43,570 nucleotides of DNA from the IMG/VR virus record IMGVR_UViG_3300018417_000016, positions 1 through 43,570 of that record, one strand, 5' to 3'. The notes below the pieces were generated by a model that worked only from the letters and a program-made list of their open reading frames with translations, did not search any database and was not told the DNA's origin. Position 1 is the stretch's first letter. Every line of letters starts with the position of its first letter. Positions 3 through 6,271 of the stretch are shown here, one piece after another. The stretch comes from a virus. A program made the translations under genes and the position numbers.

Positions 3-626
3 AAAACTGGTCAGAAAACTATCGAAATGATTGGTGCAAACTTTGTTGCATCTGAACCATCTATCTTTGGCACACCTAGTCAAGATTACATTAAGAAAGA
101 AATCGCTTGGTACGAAAGCGAGTCAACTAACATCTACGACATCAATAAAGAGTCTGGAGCTGATGCCCCTGCTGCTTGGAAATATTCAGCAGACAAGCAT
201 GGCAATATCAACTCTAACTATGGCCATCTTGTTTTCTCGGATAAGTACTTCAAACAATTTTATATGGCCTTTGATGAATTATGGTGTAATCCAGACAGCC
301 GCCGTGCTCAAATGGTTTACAACCGTCCATCAATCTGGGTTGAATTCAATGAAGGCGGTAAGTCTGACTTCATCTGTACAAATGCACAAACATTCTATAT
401 TCGTGATGGTGTCTTGATGATGGTATCTCAAATGCGTTCTAATGATGTTGTTTTTGGCTATAAGAATGATTATGCTTGGGCACAATACCTTATGGACAAG
501 TTTGTTTCTAATTGGAATGAAATGGCTGCAGTTACAGGTGAACATGGCGAGATTGAAAAAGGTATGCTCATCTGGCAAGTCATGAACTTGCATGTTTACG
601 AAAGACATTTTAATTTGGTGAAATAA
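3..626 (+). CDS. 42: dCMP hydroxymethylase (gp42), 5' partial
   Basis: Converts dCMP to 5-hydroxymethyl-dCMP with methylene-tetrahydrofolate, the first committed step to hydroxymethylcytosine DNA. The frame is open to the left edge, and the residues before the first ATG (position 27) already match T4 gp42 (KTGxKTIE, then IGAxFVA), so the true start is outside the window. Counting from the Met at 27, the thymidylate-synthase-fold catalytic Cys is C117 (SDFICTN). The pyrimidine-selecting position, Asn in thymidylate synthase, is Asp (D148 in GYKNDYAW), as in T4 gp42; this favours dCMP over dUMP. The C-terminus stops soon after the HVYxRHF motif and is shorter than T4's by about 25 residues. The stop overlaps the next ATG by one base (TAATG). 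The family call is firm; exact substrate is inferred from the Asp. Confidence 0.95.
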   Translation, partial: KTGQKTIEMIGANFVASEPSIFGTPSQDYIKKEIAWYESESTNIYDINKESGADAPAAWKYSADKHGNINSNYGHLVFSDKYFKQFYMAFDELWCNPDSRRAQMVYNRPSIWVEFNEGGKSDFICTNAQTFYIRDGVLMMVSQMRSNDVVFGYKNDYAWAQYLMDKFVSNWNEMAAVTGEHGEIEKGMLIWQVMNLHVYERHFNLVK

Positions 627-862
627 TGGAAAAGCCTAATAAGCTTATTCTTATCTCTGATATTATTGAGACAAGAGTACGAAAAGAAAAAGAAATTGAG
701 TATTACCAAAAACAAATCGAGAAAATACAGCAAAAAATGTTCTTTCTTCAAAAAGATTTAGAAATTACAAATCTTATCATAGATATGATTGAAAAAGAAA
801 AAGTTGTAGACATAAAAGAGCGAATGGAACAAAAGCTCTTAGGTAAGAAAGATGATGGGTAG
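626..862 (+). CDS. Small coiled-coil hypothetical protein
   Basis: A 78-residue, strongly charged protein, rich in Lys, Glu and Gln, predicted mostly helical. Residues 18-60 have heptad-like hydrophobic spacing typical of a coiled coil. I do not recognise a family. It starts on the last base of the gp42 stop codon and overlaps the dCMP deaminase start by 11 bases, so it is embedded in the nucleotide-metabolism operon and probably translationally coupled. No signal peptide or membrane segment is visible. Function unknown; an adaptor or oligomerisation role is only a guess. Confidence 0.7.
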   Translation: MEKPNKLILISDIIETRVRKEKEIEYYQKQIEKIQQKMFFLQKDLEITNLIIDMIEKEKVVDIKERMEQKLLGKKDDG

Positions 863-1391
863 AATGGAATATTACGAAGAAAGATACCAGCGAGAAAGCT
901 ATTGGGATTATATGGGACGACGTATGCGAGAAGAAGATCAAAAAGATCTCAAGTGGGATCTGCGCTTTATGCAAATGGCACATACAATTTCTACTTGGTC
1001 CAAAGATCCTTCAAGTAAAATTGGCGCCGTAGTTGTCAATGATGAGAAACGTATTCTTGCTACTGGATACAACGGTTTTCCAAGAGGTATTGAAGACAGC
1101 GAAGAACGGCTTAATAACAGAGATGAAAAGTATCCTCGCATTATTCATGCTGAAATGAATGCATTGATGAATGCTCTTTACAATGGTGTATCTGTTAAAG
1201 GTTGCACCTTATACGTATATGGATTACCAATATGCCCAGATTGCACTAAGTGTGTTATACAAGCTGGAATTAAGCGAGTTGTAATACCTACGTTTAAAAC
1301 TAAAAAAGGTGAATGGGAAAAAATTTGGCTTGAAAAAAGTTTACCAATGTTTAAGGAAAGTGGTGTCGTAGTCGTGGATCTAAGTTTATAG
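852..1391 (+). CDS. cd: dCMP deaminase
   Basis: Zinc-dependent deaminase turning dCMP into dUMP, which supplies thymidylate synthesis in phage-infected cells. The zinc-site motif is present: H99-A-E101 (HAEMNA, with E101 as the proton shuttle), followed by C128 and C131 in PICPDCTK. The core runs from about residue 35 (LRFMQMAHTIS) to 150, the usual layout of the T4 Cd/ComEB family. The first 30 residues are a charged extension (YYEERYQRESYW), longer than usual. Starts at 852 or 855 are both possible; both overlap the preceding gene. In an hmC phage this enzyme competes with gp42 for dCMP and so helps set the T:hmC balance. Confidence 0.93.
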   Translation: MMGRMEYYEERYQRESYWDYMGRRMREEDQKDLKWDLRFMQMAHTISTWSKDPSSKIGAVVVNDEKRILATGYNGFPRGIEDSEERLNNRDEKYPRIIHAEMNALMNALYNGVSVKGCTLYVYGLPICPDCTKCVIQAGIKRVVIPTFKTKKGEWEKIWLEKSLPMFKESGVVVVDLSL

Positions 1392-1420
1392 TTGACATTT
1401 GGCTAAATATAAGGTAAAAT
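1392..1420 (+). promoter_or_regulatory. Sigma-70-type (early) promoter
   Basis: TTGACA at 1392-1397, a 17-base spacer, then TAAAAT at 1415-1420: a near-consensus host promoter in the short gap before the glycosyltransferase gene, whose ribosome site AAGGAG lies at about 1434-1439. It would start an early transcript covering the glycosyltransferase, mutase and methyltransferase genes. A TAAATATA element at 1404-1411, inside the spacer, resembles the late motif but is weaker. Confidence 0.7.
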
Positions 1421-1444
1421 GTAACTAAAGTGTAAGGAGTCATA

Positions 1445-2542
1445 ATGAAAAAAATTCTTGTAACCGGTATGAATAAGCTCCAATGTACGAAAGACTTCTT
1501 TCTACAGCAACAGCTTCAAGTAGTACCATCTCACTATTCGCTTATTCGTTGTCTTGAAGATATGGGCTACGAGGTTGAGCAAAGACCTGTAAGACTAGGC
1601 GAGAACCTAGATGAATATGATGAGGTAATTGTATATATCCACAGTATTCAGGCTTTCTGTCAGTTCCTCTGGGCCGGTCTGTATGCAGTACACGCTCGTC
1701 CAAACTGCATTATTGCTTTTGATGATTGGCAGTTTAAACAGATCTACAGCACCATTGAAACATACAAAGAGAAGCTTGAAGCAAATGATGAAGGCGTATT
1801 CCGTCAGTATCTCTTTGATCTATGGCAAGGTGTCGAAGATAAAGATACTGTTGCGTCATATAAAGAACAATATATTGATGCTTGTAATATTATCACCAGT
1901 AAAGAAAATCGTCTGCTTGTAAGTGCGTTTGCAGGTGGCGATATGTCAACACTAGAACTTGGCTGGAAAGAAGAAAACGTTTATACATACAATCCAAATC
2001 CATATCACCTGAATCGTCGCTCAGACAACGGTTATGGAACTGGAACAGTAGCACTAGATAATTTCTTTGGTGATACCCCAGAAAAAGAAATGAAATGGAA
2101 TTTTGCGTCTCTTGTACAAGAGAAAACGCGAAAATGGCTCAAGGCGCAGCAACCTGACGATTGGAAGTGGGAAATTGTTTACTACGGAGCGAAGCGTGGT
2201 AAGTATAAGTCAGAGCGTAAAACCGAACCCGAAATGGTAAAAGTATTCGAACAACAATGGGGCTGTCTAATGCCCGGATACTTCCATGCCGGATCTGGGT
2301 GGTGGCGAGCACGCCCACTGCAGGTTGCTGACGCCGGTTCTATTATCATTGGTGATAAACCTGAAATGATGGTTTACTATCAAGACGACGCATTGGCTGG
2401 TCTAAAAGTACAAGACGTTGAAGCAATGGATCTTACTCAATTGCAAACAACTGCTAAAGCTCAGCGTGATGCTCTATATGATAACCATCCTTTGAATACT
2501 TTCGTACAACAGGAAGAAATCAAAAGGTGTTTGGAAGCATGA
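1445..2542 (+). CDS. GT-B-like glycosyltransferase, candidate hmC-DNA glycosyltransferase
   Basis: A 365-residue protein. The start MKKILVTGMN and the region near residue 62 (EVIVYIHSIQAF) look like the N-terminal Rossmann half of a GT-B enzyme. The C-terminal half starts near residue 243 with IVYYGAKRGKYKSER, which resembles the YGG-x-x-R-x-G-x-R stretch of T4 beta-glucosyltransferase. A later segment, RARPLQVADAGSIIIGDKPEM (residues 288-308), resembles the nucleotide-sugar-binding RVWETMASD region. These are similarities by eye, not an alignment. The gene follows gp42 and dCMP deaminase and overlaps a UDP-galactopyranose mutase by the ATGA junction, which suggests a sugar transferred to hydroxymethylcytosine. 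A surface-glycan transferase is the alternative. Confidence 0.6.
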   Translation: MKKILVTGMNKLQCTKDFFLQQQLQVVPSHYSLIRCLEDMGYEVEQRPVRLGENLDEYDEVIVYIHSIQAFCQFLWAGLYAVHARPNCIIAFDDWQFKQIYSTIETYKEKLEANDEGVFRQYLFDLWQGVEDKDTVASYKEQYIDACNIITSKENRLLVSAFAGGDMSTLELGWKEENVYTYNPNPYHLNRRSDNGYGTGTVALDNFFGDTPEKEMKWNFASLVQEKTRKWLKAQQPDDWKWEIVYYGAKRGKYKSERKTEPEMVKVFEQQWGCLMPGYFHAGSGWWRARPLQVADAGSIIIGDKPEMMVYYQDDALAGLKVQDVEAMDLTQLQTTAKAQRDALYDNHPLNTFVQQEEIKRCLEA

Positions 2543-3549
2543 AGAGAATACTTGTAGTAGGAGCCGGTTTATCTGGTGCGACGATTGCTCGTGATCTTGC
2601 TGATATAGGCTATAAGGTTCATGTAATCGATCGTCGTAATCATGTCGCAGGTAACGCTTATGATTATGTAAATGAACACGGCATCCGAGTTCACGAATAT
2701 GGTCCTCATTTGTTTCATACAAACAACGAGCGAGTATTCACTTGGATGTCACGATTTACTGAATGGGTTGAATATCGCCATAAAGTAAAAGCTCAACTAG
2801 AAGATGGCCGATACGCTACACTACCGGTTAATCGAGAAACAAAAGATATGGTCGGTGAAGAAAATGTTCTTGATGTATTCTTCCGTCCATATACAAAGAA
2901 AATGTGGGGAGTTGAACTAGACCAACTCAATCCTGATATTATTAATCGCGTACCAATTCGTGATGATGATAATGAGTACTATTTCCCTGATGATAAGATT
3001 CAGTACATGCCACGACACGGCTATACGAAGATGGTTGAGAATATGCTCCATCATCATAATATCACTCTAGGTCTTAATACAGATTTCAATGTTAACATGG
3101 AAAAGAATTACGATCATGTTTTCAACTCTATGCCAATTGATCAGTACTTTGAATTTAAATATGGTAAGCTTCCATATCGATCAATTAAGTTTGAAACTGT
3201 GAGCTTACCAATTCCACAGGCTCTGCCTACCGCAACTGTGAACTTTACTCACCACGGTCCAAAGACTCGTGTGACTGAATGGAAAAATATCCCTTGTCAC
3301 GGAGATAATAAATATATCACAACACTGACTTTCGAAGAGCCATGCGACTACGCTGACAACAATTTCGAAAGGTACTATCCGGTTAAAGATCGTGATGGTA
3401 AGAACAGAGAGTTGTATGAACGATATAAAAATGACCAGCCAGAGAATGTTACCTTTATAGGACGCTGCGGTTTGTATGCTTATCTTGATATGCATCAGGC
3501 AGTTAACTCAGCTTTGGCAATAGCGAGAAAGTTTATAGATGATGAATGA
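2539..3549 (+). CDS. glf: UDP-galactopyranose mutase
   Basis: FAD enzyme interconverting UDP-galactopyranose and UDP-galactofuranose. Visible motifs: dinucleotide-binding VVGAGLSGATIA near the N-terminus followed by the Glu/Asp-like strand end HVIDRRNHVAGNAYD; the diagnostic EYGPHLFHTN; RPYTKKMWG; and the C-terminal FAD/substrate segment GRCGLYAYLDMHQAVNSAL. At 336 residues it is a little shorter than bacterial Glf (about 370-390). I chose the ATG at 2539, which overlaps the previous stop (ATGA) and has an AAAAGG ribosome site upstream; a GTG at 2527 would add four residues. Coupling to the glycosyltransferase implies it makes that enzyme's donor. Mutase activity on UDP-arabinose is a possible variant of this family. 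Confidence 0.9.
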   Translation: MKRILVVGAGLSGATIARDLADIGYKVHVIDRRNHVAGNAYDYVNEHGIRVHEYGPHLFHTNNERVFTWMSRFTEWVEYRHKVKAQLEDGRYATLPVNRETKDMVGEENVLDVFFRPYTKKMWGVELDQLNPDIINRVPIRDDDNEYYFPDDKIQYMPRHGYTKMVENMLHHHNITLGLNTDFNVNMEKNYDHVFNSMPIDQYFEFKYGKLPYRSIKFETVSLPIPQALPTATVNFTHHGPKTRVTEWKNIPCHGDNKYITTLTFEEPCDYADNNFERYYPVKDRDGKNRELYERYKNDQPENVTFIGRCGLYAYLDMHQAVNSALAIARKFIDDE

Positions 3550-4753
3550 TTTTACCCATGCAAGTATAGTCCCACTTATTGGAGGTGAAACCATTGGTTC
3601 ACATCGAGCCTTTGGTGCACCACCAATTCATTTTATGTCATACGAAGCATTCGAAGGTAATGACAAACACATCCTTAATTATTACAATAATGAAATACCG
3701 TACCATGTATTAGATGCTGGTAGTAGCATTCCAGAACAAAAGGCTGATGTTGTATCGTCAGTTTGTCCTTGCGCTGGTTTGTCTATGATGTCGCATGGTT
3801 ATGGTGACGATAATGATAATAATAAATGGATGATTGAAACAGCAAACCTAATTCTTGGTGATTATCAACCAAAATGTTTTTGGGGTGAGAATGCTCCAGG
3901 ATTTGCTGGTAAAATTGGTACAAATGTTAGAAACCAAATGAAAGCGATTGGTGCAGATAACGGTTATACTATGTCCGTATATCGTACTAAGTCATTGCTT
4001 CATGGTGTACCACAAGTTCGAGAACGCTCATTTTACTTCTTTTGGAAAGATACAAATGGGCAGGTTCCAATTTTTAATTATTACAATCGCGAATATACTC
4101 CGATCGAAGAGTTAATTCGTAATGTAAAATCAAACTTCCAGACAGAACCAATCAATAAGAAAAAGCCATCGGATAATCCGTACTATAAGTATATCCTTGA
4201 AGAAGTTGAAGGTGGTAAGACTCATACAGAACATTCTAAGGATGTCGATCCAACATCAGCTCGTGGTGTAGATGCTTTCTCTTATATCGAAAGAGCAGGT
4301 AAAACATACAATGAAGTAGCCGAATGGATGGAAGCAAATGGCTATGAGAATGAAGTTGAGAAATGTAAGTACAAACATGAAAAGCTTGCGCGTGGCGGAA
4401 GTATCATGAGAAGAGGTGTAATTGTTCCAAAAGATCGTATTGGTGCTTTTGTTGGTCACTATCCTACTATGCTTACTCATCCTGATGAAGATCGATTTAT
4501 TAATTACCGAGAAGCTATGTCAATCATGGGGCTGCCCGAAGACTTTGAATTGGTCGATGCGGGCCCTAAAGTAGCAAACCATATATGCCAAAACGTACCT
4601 GTGCAAACAGCCACAGACATGGCTACAGAGGTTCTAGCAACACTCCGTGGTGAAAGAAAAATGGTTGACACCGACTACATTTTGCAGTATAATGGTACTC
4701 AGAAGTTAGAATATAACGAAAAAGTTACAACACTTGAGGCGTTTTTTGGATGA
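3539..4753 (+). CDS. DNA cytosine-C5 methyltransferase
   Basis: A 404-residue Dcm-type enzyme. Motifs in order: a degenerate SAM motif I (PLIGGETIG, residues 12-20), motif IV with the catalytic Pro-Cys at P77-C78 (SVCPCAGLS), motif VI E117-N118 (WGENAP), motif VIII Q159-V-R161-E-R163, and motif IX/X at the C-terminus (NYREAMSIMGLPEDF, then VANHICQNVPV). The stretch between residues 190 and 290 would be the target-recognition region. It overlaps the mutase by 11 bases and the next gene by 4. Its presence in a phage predicted to hydroxymethylate its cytosines is odd: it may act on unmodified cytosine, on host DNA, or as a repurposed C5-modifying enzyme. The fold call is firm; substrate is not known. 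Confidence 0.88.
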   Translation: MMNDFTHASIVPLIGGETIGSHRAFGAPPIHFMSYEAFEGNDKHILNYYNNEIPYHVLDAGSSIPEQKADVVSSVCPCAGLSMMSHGYGDDNDNNKWMIETANLILGDYQPKCFWGENAPGFAGKIGTNVRNQMKAIGADNGYTMSVYRTKSLLHGVPQVRERSFYFFWKDTNGQVPIFNYYNREYTPIEELIRNVKSNFQTEPINKKKPSDNPYYKYILEEVEGGKTHTEHSKDVDPTSARGVDAFSYIERAGKTYNEVAEWMEANGYENEVEKCKYKHEKLARGGSIMRRGVIVPKDRIGAFVGHYPTMLTHPDEDRFINYREAMSIMGLPEDFELVDAGPKVANHICQNVPVQTATDMATEVLATLRGERKMVDTDYILQYNGTQKLEYNEKVTTLEAFFG

Positions 4754-5385
4754 GAACAGACTTTATACTAGACTTTGAAACAATAGGGCAATGCTCTCGT
4801 ATTGCACCAGCAATTGATTGTTCTTATACAATATTCATATGGGATCGTTTTCTTGATGAGCCTTATTCGTTTCATGAACTAATATCCGGCGCTCATAGAT
4901 CTAAACTTTCGATTCAAGATCAAATTAAAAACTATGATTTTTCTTACAAGTCAGAAGACTTAGATTGGTGGATGAATCAATCAAAAGAAGTGCGCGCAAA
5001 TATTAAACCGAGAGATACTGATCTTACAGTAGTTCAATTTATAGAAGAAATGATTGGCTACCTTCGCTCTCAAGATAAAATTGATTATTGGTGGAGTAGA
5101 TCAAACAGCTTTGATCCTGTAATTCTTGACCACCTTTCAATGTCAATAAAGAAAGATAAGTTTTTAAACGAATATATTCCTTACTGGAAGAACCGTGATA
5201 CTCGAACGTTTATTGACGCTAAGTTTAACTTCACTACAAAAAATGGATTTGTGCCCGTAGAAAATAAAGAGTTATGGGAACAAGTATTTAATGCTCATAA
5301 TAGTACGCATGATATCGCCGCAGATATTTTGAGACTTCAAGCTATTCATAGAGCAGAAAATGATATGGAGCAAGTAGAAATATGA
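4750..5385 (+). CDS. dexA: DexA-like 3'-5' exonuclease
   Basis: DnaQ-superfamily (DEDDh) exonuclease matching T4 exonuclease A. Metal-binding residues: D8 and E10 in ILDFETIG, D122 in SNSFDPVIL, and the closing H187/D192 pair in HDIAADI. Other conserved blocks shared with DexA are WWMNQSKEVRANIKP and the NRDTRT segment before the third motif. At 211 residues it is close to T4 DexA (227). It begins in an ATGA overlap with the methyltransferase and ends in one with the next glycosyltransferase. T4 DexA degrades single-stranded DNA; a part in host-DNA breakdown or recombination is the likely role. Confidence 0.88.
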   Translation: MRTDFILDFETIGQCSRIAPAIDCSYTIFIWDRFLDEPYSFHELISGAHRSKLSIQDQIKNYDFSYKSEDLDWWMNQSKEVRANIKPRDTDLTVVQFIEEMIGYLRSQDKIDYWWSRSNSFDPVILDHLSMSIKKDKFLNEYIPYWKNRDTRTFIDAKFNFTTKNGFVPVENKELWEQVFNAHNSTHDIAADILRLQAIHRAENDMEQVEI

Positions 5386-6242
5386 AAATTGAAGTAAGTA
5401 TTGAAGAGTTAAGAAAGCACAAGCTCTTCATTGGAACACCAATGTACGGTGCGCAGTGTGCAGGTACATACACAAAGTCTTGTACAGACTTATCTATGAT
5501 GTGCGCTCATAACGGAATTCCTTTGCAATTCTATTATTTGTTTAATGAAAGCTTAATTCAACGAGCTCGTAATTATATTGTAGATGAATTTTTGCGCTCT
5601 GATTGTTCTCATTTAGTATTCATTGATGCAGACATTGGCTTTAATCCTCGTGATATCTTAGGATTGCTTGCTGTACAATTAGCAGACCCAGAAAACAAAC
5701 ACGTCGTTACTGGCCCATATCCTAAAAAGACAATCGCTTGGGAAAAAGTACAAGCTGCAGCGAAAGCAGGTAAAGCAGATGATAATCCTTTTGAATTAGA
5801 AAACTATACTGCTGATTATGTATTTAATCCTGTGAATAAGAAAACATCATTTAATCTGGGCGAGCCACTTGAAATTGGTGAAGGTGGTACTGGATTCATG
5901 CTAATACCACGAGAAACTCTTGAAAAATTTAAAGAAGCATATCCAGAACTTGGTTATAAACCAGACCATGCTCGTACAGAGAACTTTGATGGTACCCGTG
6001 AAATTACTGCTTTCTTTGATTGCATTATTGATCCAGATACTAAACGTTATTTGTCTGAGGATTATTTCTTTTGCAAATGGGTTCGTAAAGCTGGTATGAA
6101 AGTATGGTTGTGCCCTTGGATGCAACTACAGCATATTGGTCAATACGTGTTCAAAGGTTCGTTAGGTCATATCGGTCAACTTGGTATGTCTGCAACAGCG
6201 GATGCAAAAAGCAACCGTAAAAATTACCGGAAAAAAAAGTAG
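5382..6242 (+). CDS. GT-A family glycosyltransferase
   Basis: A 286-residue GT2-like enzyme. The DxD metal/nucleotide-sugar motif is D82-A-D84 in VFIDADIGF, preceded by the SLIQRARN stretch that lines the donor site. A GGTGFMLIP segment and the SEDYFFCKWVRKAG acceptor/base motif follow, and the C-terminus HIGQYVFKG is typical of a family found in many marine T4-like phages near the clamp gene. Because that family also occurs in phages without hydroxymethylcytosine, DNA may not be its target; a glycan or capsid protein is possible. It may instead add a second sugar to modified bases. Overlaps dexA by the ATGA junction. Confidence 0.8.
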   Translation: MKIEVSIEELRKHKLFIGTPMYGAQCAGTYTKSCTDLSMMCAHNGIPLQFYYLFNESLIQRARNYIVDEFLRSDCSHLVFIDADIGFNPRDILGLLAVQLADPENKHVVTGPYPKKTIAWEKVQAAAKAGKADDNPFELENYTADYVFNPVNKKTSFNLGEPLEIGEGGTGFMLIPRETLEKFKEAYPELGYKPDHARTENFDGTREITAFFDCIIDPDTKRYLSEDYFFCKWVRKAGMKVWLCPWMQLQHIGQYVFKGSLGHIGQLGMSATADAKSNRKNYRKKK

Positions 6243-6271
6243 TTGACAGTGAATGAAAACCGTGATATATT
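6243..6271 (+). promoter_or_regulatory. Sigma-70-type promoter of the clamp gene
   Basis: TTGACA at 6243-6248, 17-base spacer, TATATT at 6266-6271. It lies in the gap before gene 45 and starts right after the previous stop codon. Together with the late-like motif just downstream it gives the clamp gene a stacked early and late promoter region. Confidence 0.75.

Follow-up and report, generated by a model that had tools for sequence, protein, structure and literature searches.

Organization of the cassette

We analysed a viral contig of 43,570 bases (IMG/VR record IMGVR_UViG_3300018417_000016; hereafter the window), which carries T4-like replication and baseplate genes and begins with a cluster of genes for nucleotide and sugar metabolism. 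We propose, with a probability of about 0.65, that this cluster makes DNA in which galactofuranose (Galf) is attached to 5-hydroxymethylcytosine (hmC). A first-pass annotation had described a cassette here of a deoxycytidine monophosphate (dCMP) hydroxymethylase, a GT-B-like transferase and a uridine diphosphate (UDP)-galactopyranose mutase, the last two coupled by ATGA. Gene by gene this description held: all the cassette genes it named lie within positions 3-6242, with matches far above chance. The features, all on the + strand, are as follows.

3..626 (+): dCMP 5-hydroxymethylase, T4 gp42 type; truncated at its 5' end, where the contig begins; PDB 1b49, E 1e-57
626..862 (+): small open reading frame (ORF), coupled to the hydroxymethylase gene by TAATG; without a confident family match
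852..1391 (+): dCMP deaminase; PF00383, 2.3e-23; PHROG 174
1392..1420 (+): sigma70-like candidate promoter ahead of the transferase gene; TTGACA-17-TAAAAT, 11/12
1445..2542 (+): GT-B-fold transferase (GT), proposed hmC-DNA galactofuranosyltransferase; PHROG 14998, 3e-28; AlphaFold2 model; PDB fold match 1qkj
2539..3549 (+): UDP-galactopyranose mutase (UGM); PF03275, 1.2e-52; ATGA overlap with the GT gene
3539..4753 (+): C5-cytosine methyltransferase-like protein; PF00145, 4.6e-22; Cys, Glu and Arg motifs intact
4750..5385 (+): 3'-5' exonuclease-like protein; PF16473, 5e-12; PHROG 255 exonuclease, 1e-25
5382..6242 (+): GT-A-fold glycosyltransferase-like protein; PHROG 1574; model predicted local distance difference test (pLDDT) score 87

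The hydroxymethylase and the expected base

The whole hydroxymethylase, of 232 amino acids, is found on an overlapping contig (L002). It shares 47% identity with T4 gp42 and has retained E60, R123, R124, C148, R168, S169 and D179. It thus has the features expected of a T4-type gp42: the thymidylate synthase fold, the catalytic Cys148, the dCMP-selective Asp179 and E60. Enzymes of the RB69 type, reported to make the 5-hydroxycytosine that RB69-type phages glycosylate (PMC13390438), share only ~24-25% identity with either T4 gp42 or the window protein; both E60 and the NDxxFGxxND block around it are missing from them. Because the window enzyme resembles T4 gp42 and not the RB69-type enzymes, the base expected from it is hmC.

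A transferase with a fold like that of T4 beta-glucosyltransferase

The GT has no confident Pfam match, and its family, PHROG 14998, is annotated as "unknown". Its AlphaFold2 model, built from 22 homologues, had a pLDDT of 78 and a predicted template modelling (TM) score of 0.77. When this model was compared with 350,542 PDB chains using Foldseek, the top match was T4 beta-glucosyltransferase (BGT; 1qkj, E 4.5e-5, TM 0.52/0.54, 12% identity), and a further BGT entry, 1bgu, was also within the top ten. The GT had been said to recall BGT, and a structure search, set beforehand as the check on that idea, ranked BGT first and not surface-glycan enzymes. The modelled protein is therefore a two-domain GT-B enzyme whose fold is most like that of a DNA-modifying one. 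The other viral matches were to the GT family itself and, at lower strength, to a protein of Shigella phage SSE1 and to various transferases from viruses.

The likeness to BGT is one of fold alone. The GT profile (A1) had no match in the T4 genome, and a sequence search of the PDB returned chance hits only, with no BGT chain among them; the GT was thus not assigned by sequence to the T4 BGT family. The profile also had no match in the RB69 genome. Among 84,980 bacterial and archaeal genomes, four GT-related loci were found at the sensitivity of the scan. Two of these have GT-A and clamp genes ordered as in the viral contigs, and another has the order hydroxymethylase-deaminase-GT-UGM. The GT family is thus almost restricted to viruses.

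An intact UGM paired with the transferase

The UGM has a GLF domain, an FAD motif and the conserved Arg, His and Tyr, and it matches the Klebsiella enzyme at all 13 active-site residues compared. Nine of these 13 are invariant in 123 homologues, with variation at F151, F152, Y185 and D351. The protein is therefore predicted to convert UDP-galactopyranose to UDP-Galf with an intact active site. Its likely start is the ATG at 2539, inside the ATGA overlap, while the mechanical ORF begins at a GTG at 2527.

The pairing of the two genes extends well beyond the window. UGM lies immediately 3' of the GT in 34/34 homologous loci of the first set retrieved. In a larger collection of 104 distinct GTs, UGM was nearby in 79 of the 102 that could be judged and absent in 23; two were not judgeable. 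The pair spans T4-like, Kyanoviridae-like and actinobacterial phages. It occurs in reversed order (UGM-GT) in cultured T4-like phages of Aeromonas (25, Aes508 and phiAS4), Stenotrophomonas (IME13) and Erwinia (FBB1), in GT-UGM order in phage C48C1, and also in actinophage DSL-LC01.

Genes for base hydroxymethylation accompany the pair. Within a few kb of the GT, a hydroxymethylase was found in 40 UGM-carrying loci and a TET dioxygenase in 12. In Kyanoviridae-like viruses a TET/JBP dioxygenase gene lies upstream of the pair in 17/17 loci with sequence there, and in phage C48C1 (L036) such a gene overlaps the start of the GT gene. Since either a dCMP hydroxymethylase or a TET enzyme adjoins it, the same pair is accompanied by two unrelated routes to a hydroxymethylpyrimidine. 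Neither a PF00145 methyltransferase nor a PF00303 enzyme was detected in the 156-kb C48C1 genome, and the TET substrate there may be thymine or 5-methylcytosine made by the host.

A different arrangement is seen in three loci (L170, L173 and L174), which have genes for GalE (UDP-glucose 4-epimerase), GT, UGM, a cytidylyltransferase-like protein and ribonucleotide reductase-like proteins in a row. ThyX lies upstream (Pfam-confirmed in L173), and a hydroxymethylase and TET were not seen nearby. Some GalE-GT-UGM loci thus have ThyX in place of the hydroxymethylase.

Supply of the sugar donor

A GalE-like gene was found near the GT in 39/72 loci with UGM vs 1/21 loci without it (Fisher p 3e-5, a value inflated by related rows). 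The best NCBIfam family was UDP-glucose 4-epimerase GalE in 10/10 proteins tested, below the equivalog cut-off. Together, GalE and UGM are predicted to complete the path from UDP-glucose through UDP-galactose to UDP-Galf in about half of the loci with UGM. In the window itself no GalE adjoins the GT.

Some members of the GT family occur without UGM. Gordonia phages Forza and GodonK are among them; mycolata, to which Gordonia hosts belong, make UDP-Galf themselves, for arabinogalactan. Thirteen UGM-less GTs form one supported clade nested within relatives that have UGM, and where gene order could be judged it is the same minus UGM. A search of contigs of this clade's type, all of them fragments, did not reveal UGM at any other site. 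Relative to 72 rows with UGM, the clade has five substitutions at positions that are >=90% conserved elsewhere, all confined to GT motifs 219-221 and 289-295 (GWWRARPLQVADAG -> GWWRSRVQQVVDAG), where residues 219, 221, 289, 291 and 295 differ between the two GT types. Other GT clades, with stems of ~0.2-0.7, have 0-4 such changes, without similar clustering. We recognised this clustering post hoc (P 0.004 for span, 0.013 for motif). From their location in the C-terminal domain, the substituted residues would contact the donor, and the motif change is as expected if donor use were altered. The clade offers a natural comparison for donor choice. In a separate group of actinophages (L077-L088), close relatives among the cassettes, with GTs ~80% identical, are found with or without UGM between two GT-family genes, which makes them a second natural comparison.

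A proposed pathway to Galf-hmC DNA

From the enzyme families and their intact active sites, the modelled BGT-like fold, and the linkage of GT, UGM and hydroxymethylation enzymes, we infer an acceptor (hmC in DNA), a sugar (Galf) and an effect (protection). The hydroxymethylase would convert dCMP to hydroxymethyl-dCMP, which would be phosphorylated and then incorporated into DNA. UGM would convert UDP-galactopyranose to UDP-Galf; the galactopyranose donor would come from the host or, as is probable for many relatives, from a phage-encoded GalE. The BGT-like GT-B enzyme would then attach the furanose to hmC of replicated DNA, at the hydroxymethyl group, where the sugar would shield the DNA against nucleases. 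That the product is glycosylated hmC of some kind, whatever the sugar, is highly probable. We also lean, with slightly less confidence than for the window itself, towards Galf-hmC being a widespread viral base. It would be made by a portable GalE-GT-UGM module common to T4-like, Kyanoviridae-like and actinobacterial phages, which plugs into the two hydroxymethylation routes and drops UGM if the host supplies the donor or the transferase motif changes.

The first-pass annotation had suggested phage-made hmC and a furanose donor derived from the mutase. This idea survived all our computational tests, and it gained support from the GalE genes beside GT-UGM, from the two unrelated hydroxymethylation routes and from the changes that the clade without UGM shows in two GT motifs. 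In the open-access literature, we found nothing connecting phage DNA modification with UGM or galactofuranose. Galactofuranose is not an established DNA decoration; if the proposal is correct, a furanose hexose joins the known DNA sugars, PHROG 14998 gains a function, and some phage UGM genes hitherto read as cell-wall genes are explained.

Several observations weigh against the proposed pathway. The fold likeness between GT and BGT is moderate, with TM at 0.52 and identity at 12%. Some loci have no hydroxymethylase or TET near the pair (for example L035, L158, L170-174 and L181). A C5-methyltransferase in the same unit would be odd if every cytosine C5 were filled. The association of galE with UGM is not significant after accounting for phylogeny, where four independent pairs gave low power. 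The larger window-like contigs showed no dCTPase of the gp56 type, an observation that is uninformative by itself; the cultured phages Aes508 and FBB1 each carry both a T4-type hydroxymethylase and the dCTPase gp56. Finally, among related viral UGMs a GT is adjacent in 55/72 loci and missing in 17/72. These GT-less UGMs are up to 82% identical to that of the window (for example L184, L188, L190, L193, L239 and L242), and in 13 of the 17 contigs the GT did not turn up at any other position either. Seven of the 17 loci were inspected and have lipopolysaccharide (LPS)-like clusters with GT8/GT25-like and sugar methyltransferase genes; a family scan of one GT-less locus identified GT8, GT25 and methyltransferase genes plus a GalE-like gene. 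Such clusters are probably surface-glycan islands. UGM is common to DNA-type and surface-type cassettes, and it is therefore adjacency to the GT that assigns the UGM of the window.

Alternative explanations for the sugar and its target

The surface islands raise the possibility that GT and UGM modify host LPS against superinfection, with their position beside the hydroxymethylase being incidental, and two published accounts have indeed assigned a phage UGM to the cell wall (PMC6630229, PMC10611076). We consider this quite unlikely for the window, given the BGT-like fold and near restriction of the GT family to viruses, the many hydroxymethylase and TET genes within a few kb of the pair, and the lack of a GT8/GT25 cluster adjoining it. 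Less probable still is an acceptor other than hmC, namely 5-hydroxycytosine or 5-hydroxymethyluracil. The former is glycosylated by RB69-type phages (PMC13390438), and TET might oxidise thymine in C48C1, where a C5-methyltransferase was not detected; the window enzyme, however, is gp42-like and keeps D179 and the E60 that RB69-type enzymes lack together with its surrounding block.

Two alternatives concern the sugar, and both are unlikely to nearly the same degree. The slightly stronger one holds that UGM is a passenger or acts in another pathway, and that the donor of the GT is UDP-galactopyranose or, as for T4 BGT, UDP-glucose. The closest fold match of the GT is indeed a UDP-glucose enzyme, and the clade of 13 GTs retains its gene order without UGM. 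The direct coupling of GT to UGM in distant lineages, in both gene orders, argues against this, as does the alteration of two conserved GT motifs in the clade lacking UGM. The other alternative accepts a furanose on hmC but not Galf: UGM would act on a different UDP-sugar, for example converting UDP-arabinopyranose to the arabinofuranose form. UGM can use UDP-arabinopyranose in vitro. Pentoses are found on cytosine in other T4-like phages, RB69 and Thanatos (PMC6024577, PMC12838424), and a distant GT-family member in Providencia phage PSTRCR_121 (L040), which has no UGM next to it, neighbours arabinose genes of the RB69 type and a gene for a 5-hydroxycytosine-synthase-type protein. The GT-UGM pair, however, is accompanied by GalE-like and not pentose-making enzymes, its UGM residues match the Klebsiella hexose enzyme, and no gene for arabinose-5-phosphate isomerase or RmlA-kinase was seen beside it. 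We therefore continue to favour Galf as the sugar. The PSTRCR_121 protein, encoded between replication genes and the arabinose/5-hydroxycytosine genes, is itself a candidate arabinosyltransferase.

Other genes of the cassette

Overlapping start and stop codons chain the GT, UGM, C5-methyltransferase, exonuclease and GT-A genes. The sigma70-like site at 1392-1420 ends 24 bp ahead of the GT start and a second one, at 6243-6271, precedes the clamp gene, so that the genes from GT through GT-A may form one transcription unit apart from the hydroxymethylase genes. As a class, promoter-like sites were no commoner than in shuffled sequence, and this arrangement is therefore no more than suggestive. 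GATC counts gave no useful signal.

The Cys, Glu and Arg motifs of the C5-methyltransferase are conserved in 111 homologues. Its distant relatives include proteins of cyanophage S-TIM5 (L103), Pseudoalteromonas phage XG4 and Bacillus phage G (gp301). By gene number, the last of these is near gp306, which has been likened to T4 alpha-glucosyltransferase (PMC6024577). Enzymes of this kind recur among hmC cassettes. The exonuclease-like protein probably has a role in replication rather than in modification.

The model of the GT-A protein matched GlfT2, COLGALT1 and other GT-A enzymes in the PDB (E ~1e-6). The C5-methyltransferase and GT-A genes had been placed in the same operon, which agrees with the chain of overlapping genes; the further suggestion that the GT-A enzyme could add sugars is weaker, as Caulobacter phage Cr30 and Stenotrophomonas phage DLP6 (L101, L102), neither of which was among the GT and UGM matches, also have a GT-A-like gene immediately before that of the sliding clamp. 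We thus set it aside as a required part of the pathway. It may be an independent transferase of the replication module or, possibly, a second transferase of the pathway.

A small gene lies upstream of the hydroxymethylase in two contigs (L006, 7852-8211; L146, 6910-7338). The L146 copy has a weak match, short of the cut-off, to DUF1599, nucleotide modification associated domain 1 (E 0.0018).

Comparison with known systems

One close parallel is the gp42/BGT system of T4. Like T4, the T4-like virus of the window combines a dCMP hydroxymethylase with a GT-B transferase, for which BGT is the nearest fold among solved structures; the gp42 and BGT genes are likewise neighbours in T4. It differs in that T4 has no UGM and uses host UDP-glucose, and in the low identity of the two transferases. 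RB69 and its relatives, with arabinosyl-hydroxycytosine DNA (PMC6024577, PMC13390438), share the combination of an unusual nucleotide sugar supplied by the phage and a GT-B transferase, but their base enzyme makes 5-hydroxycytosine and their donor genes encode an isomerase and an RmlA-kinase instead of UGM. These donor genes are absent from the cassette region, whose base enzyme is T4-like, and the window was thus rejected as an RB69-type system. In Shewanella phage Thanatos a sugar is also placed on cytosine from a phage-made donor, but this is a pentose attached directly to the C5 oxygen, and UGM is unmentioned in its description (PMC12838424).

TET-linked hypermodification of phage cytosine (Burke et al. 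2021, as cited in PMC11404850) combines TET with further base-modifying enzymes. The adjacency of GT-UGM to TET in C48C1-like viruses recalls this arrangement, whereas the window uses a dCMP hydroxymethylase. Bacterial glycan pathways with Glf and Galf-transferases share with the window a UGM with an intact active site, often with GalE near. They differ in the partner transferase, which in the window is BGT-like and of a virus-restricted family, and is neither GlfT nor an enzyme of LPS clusters.

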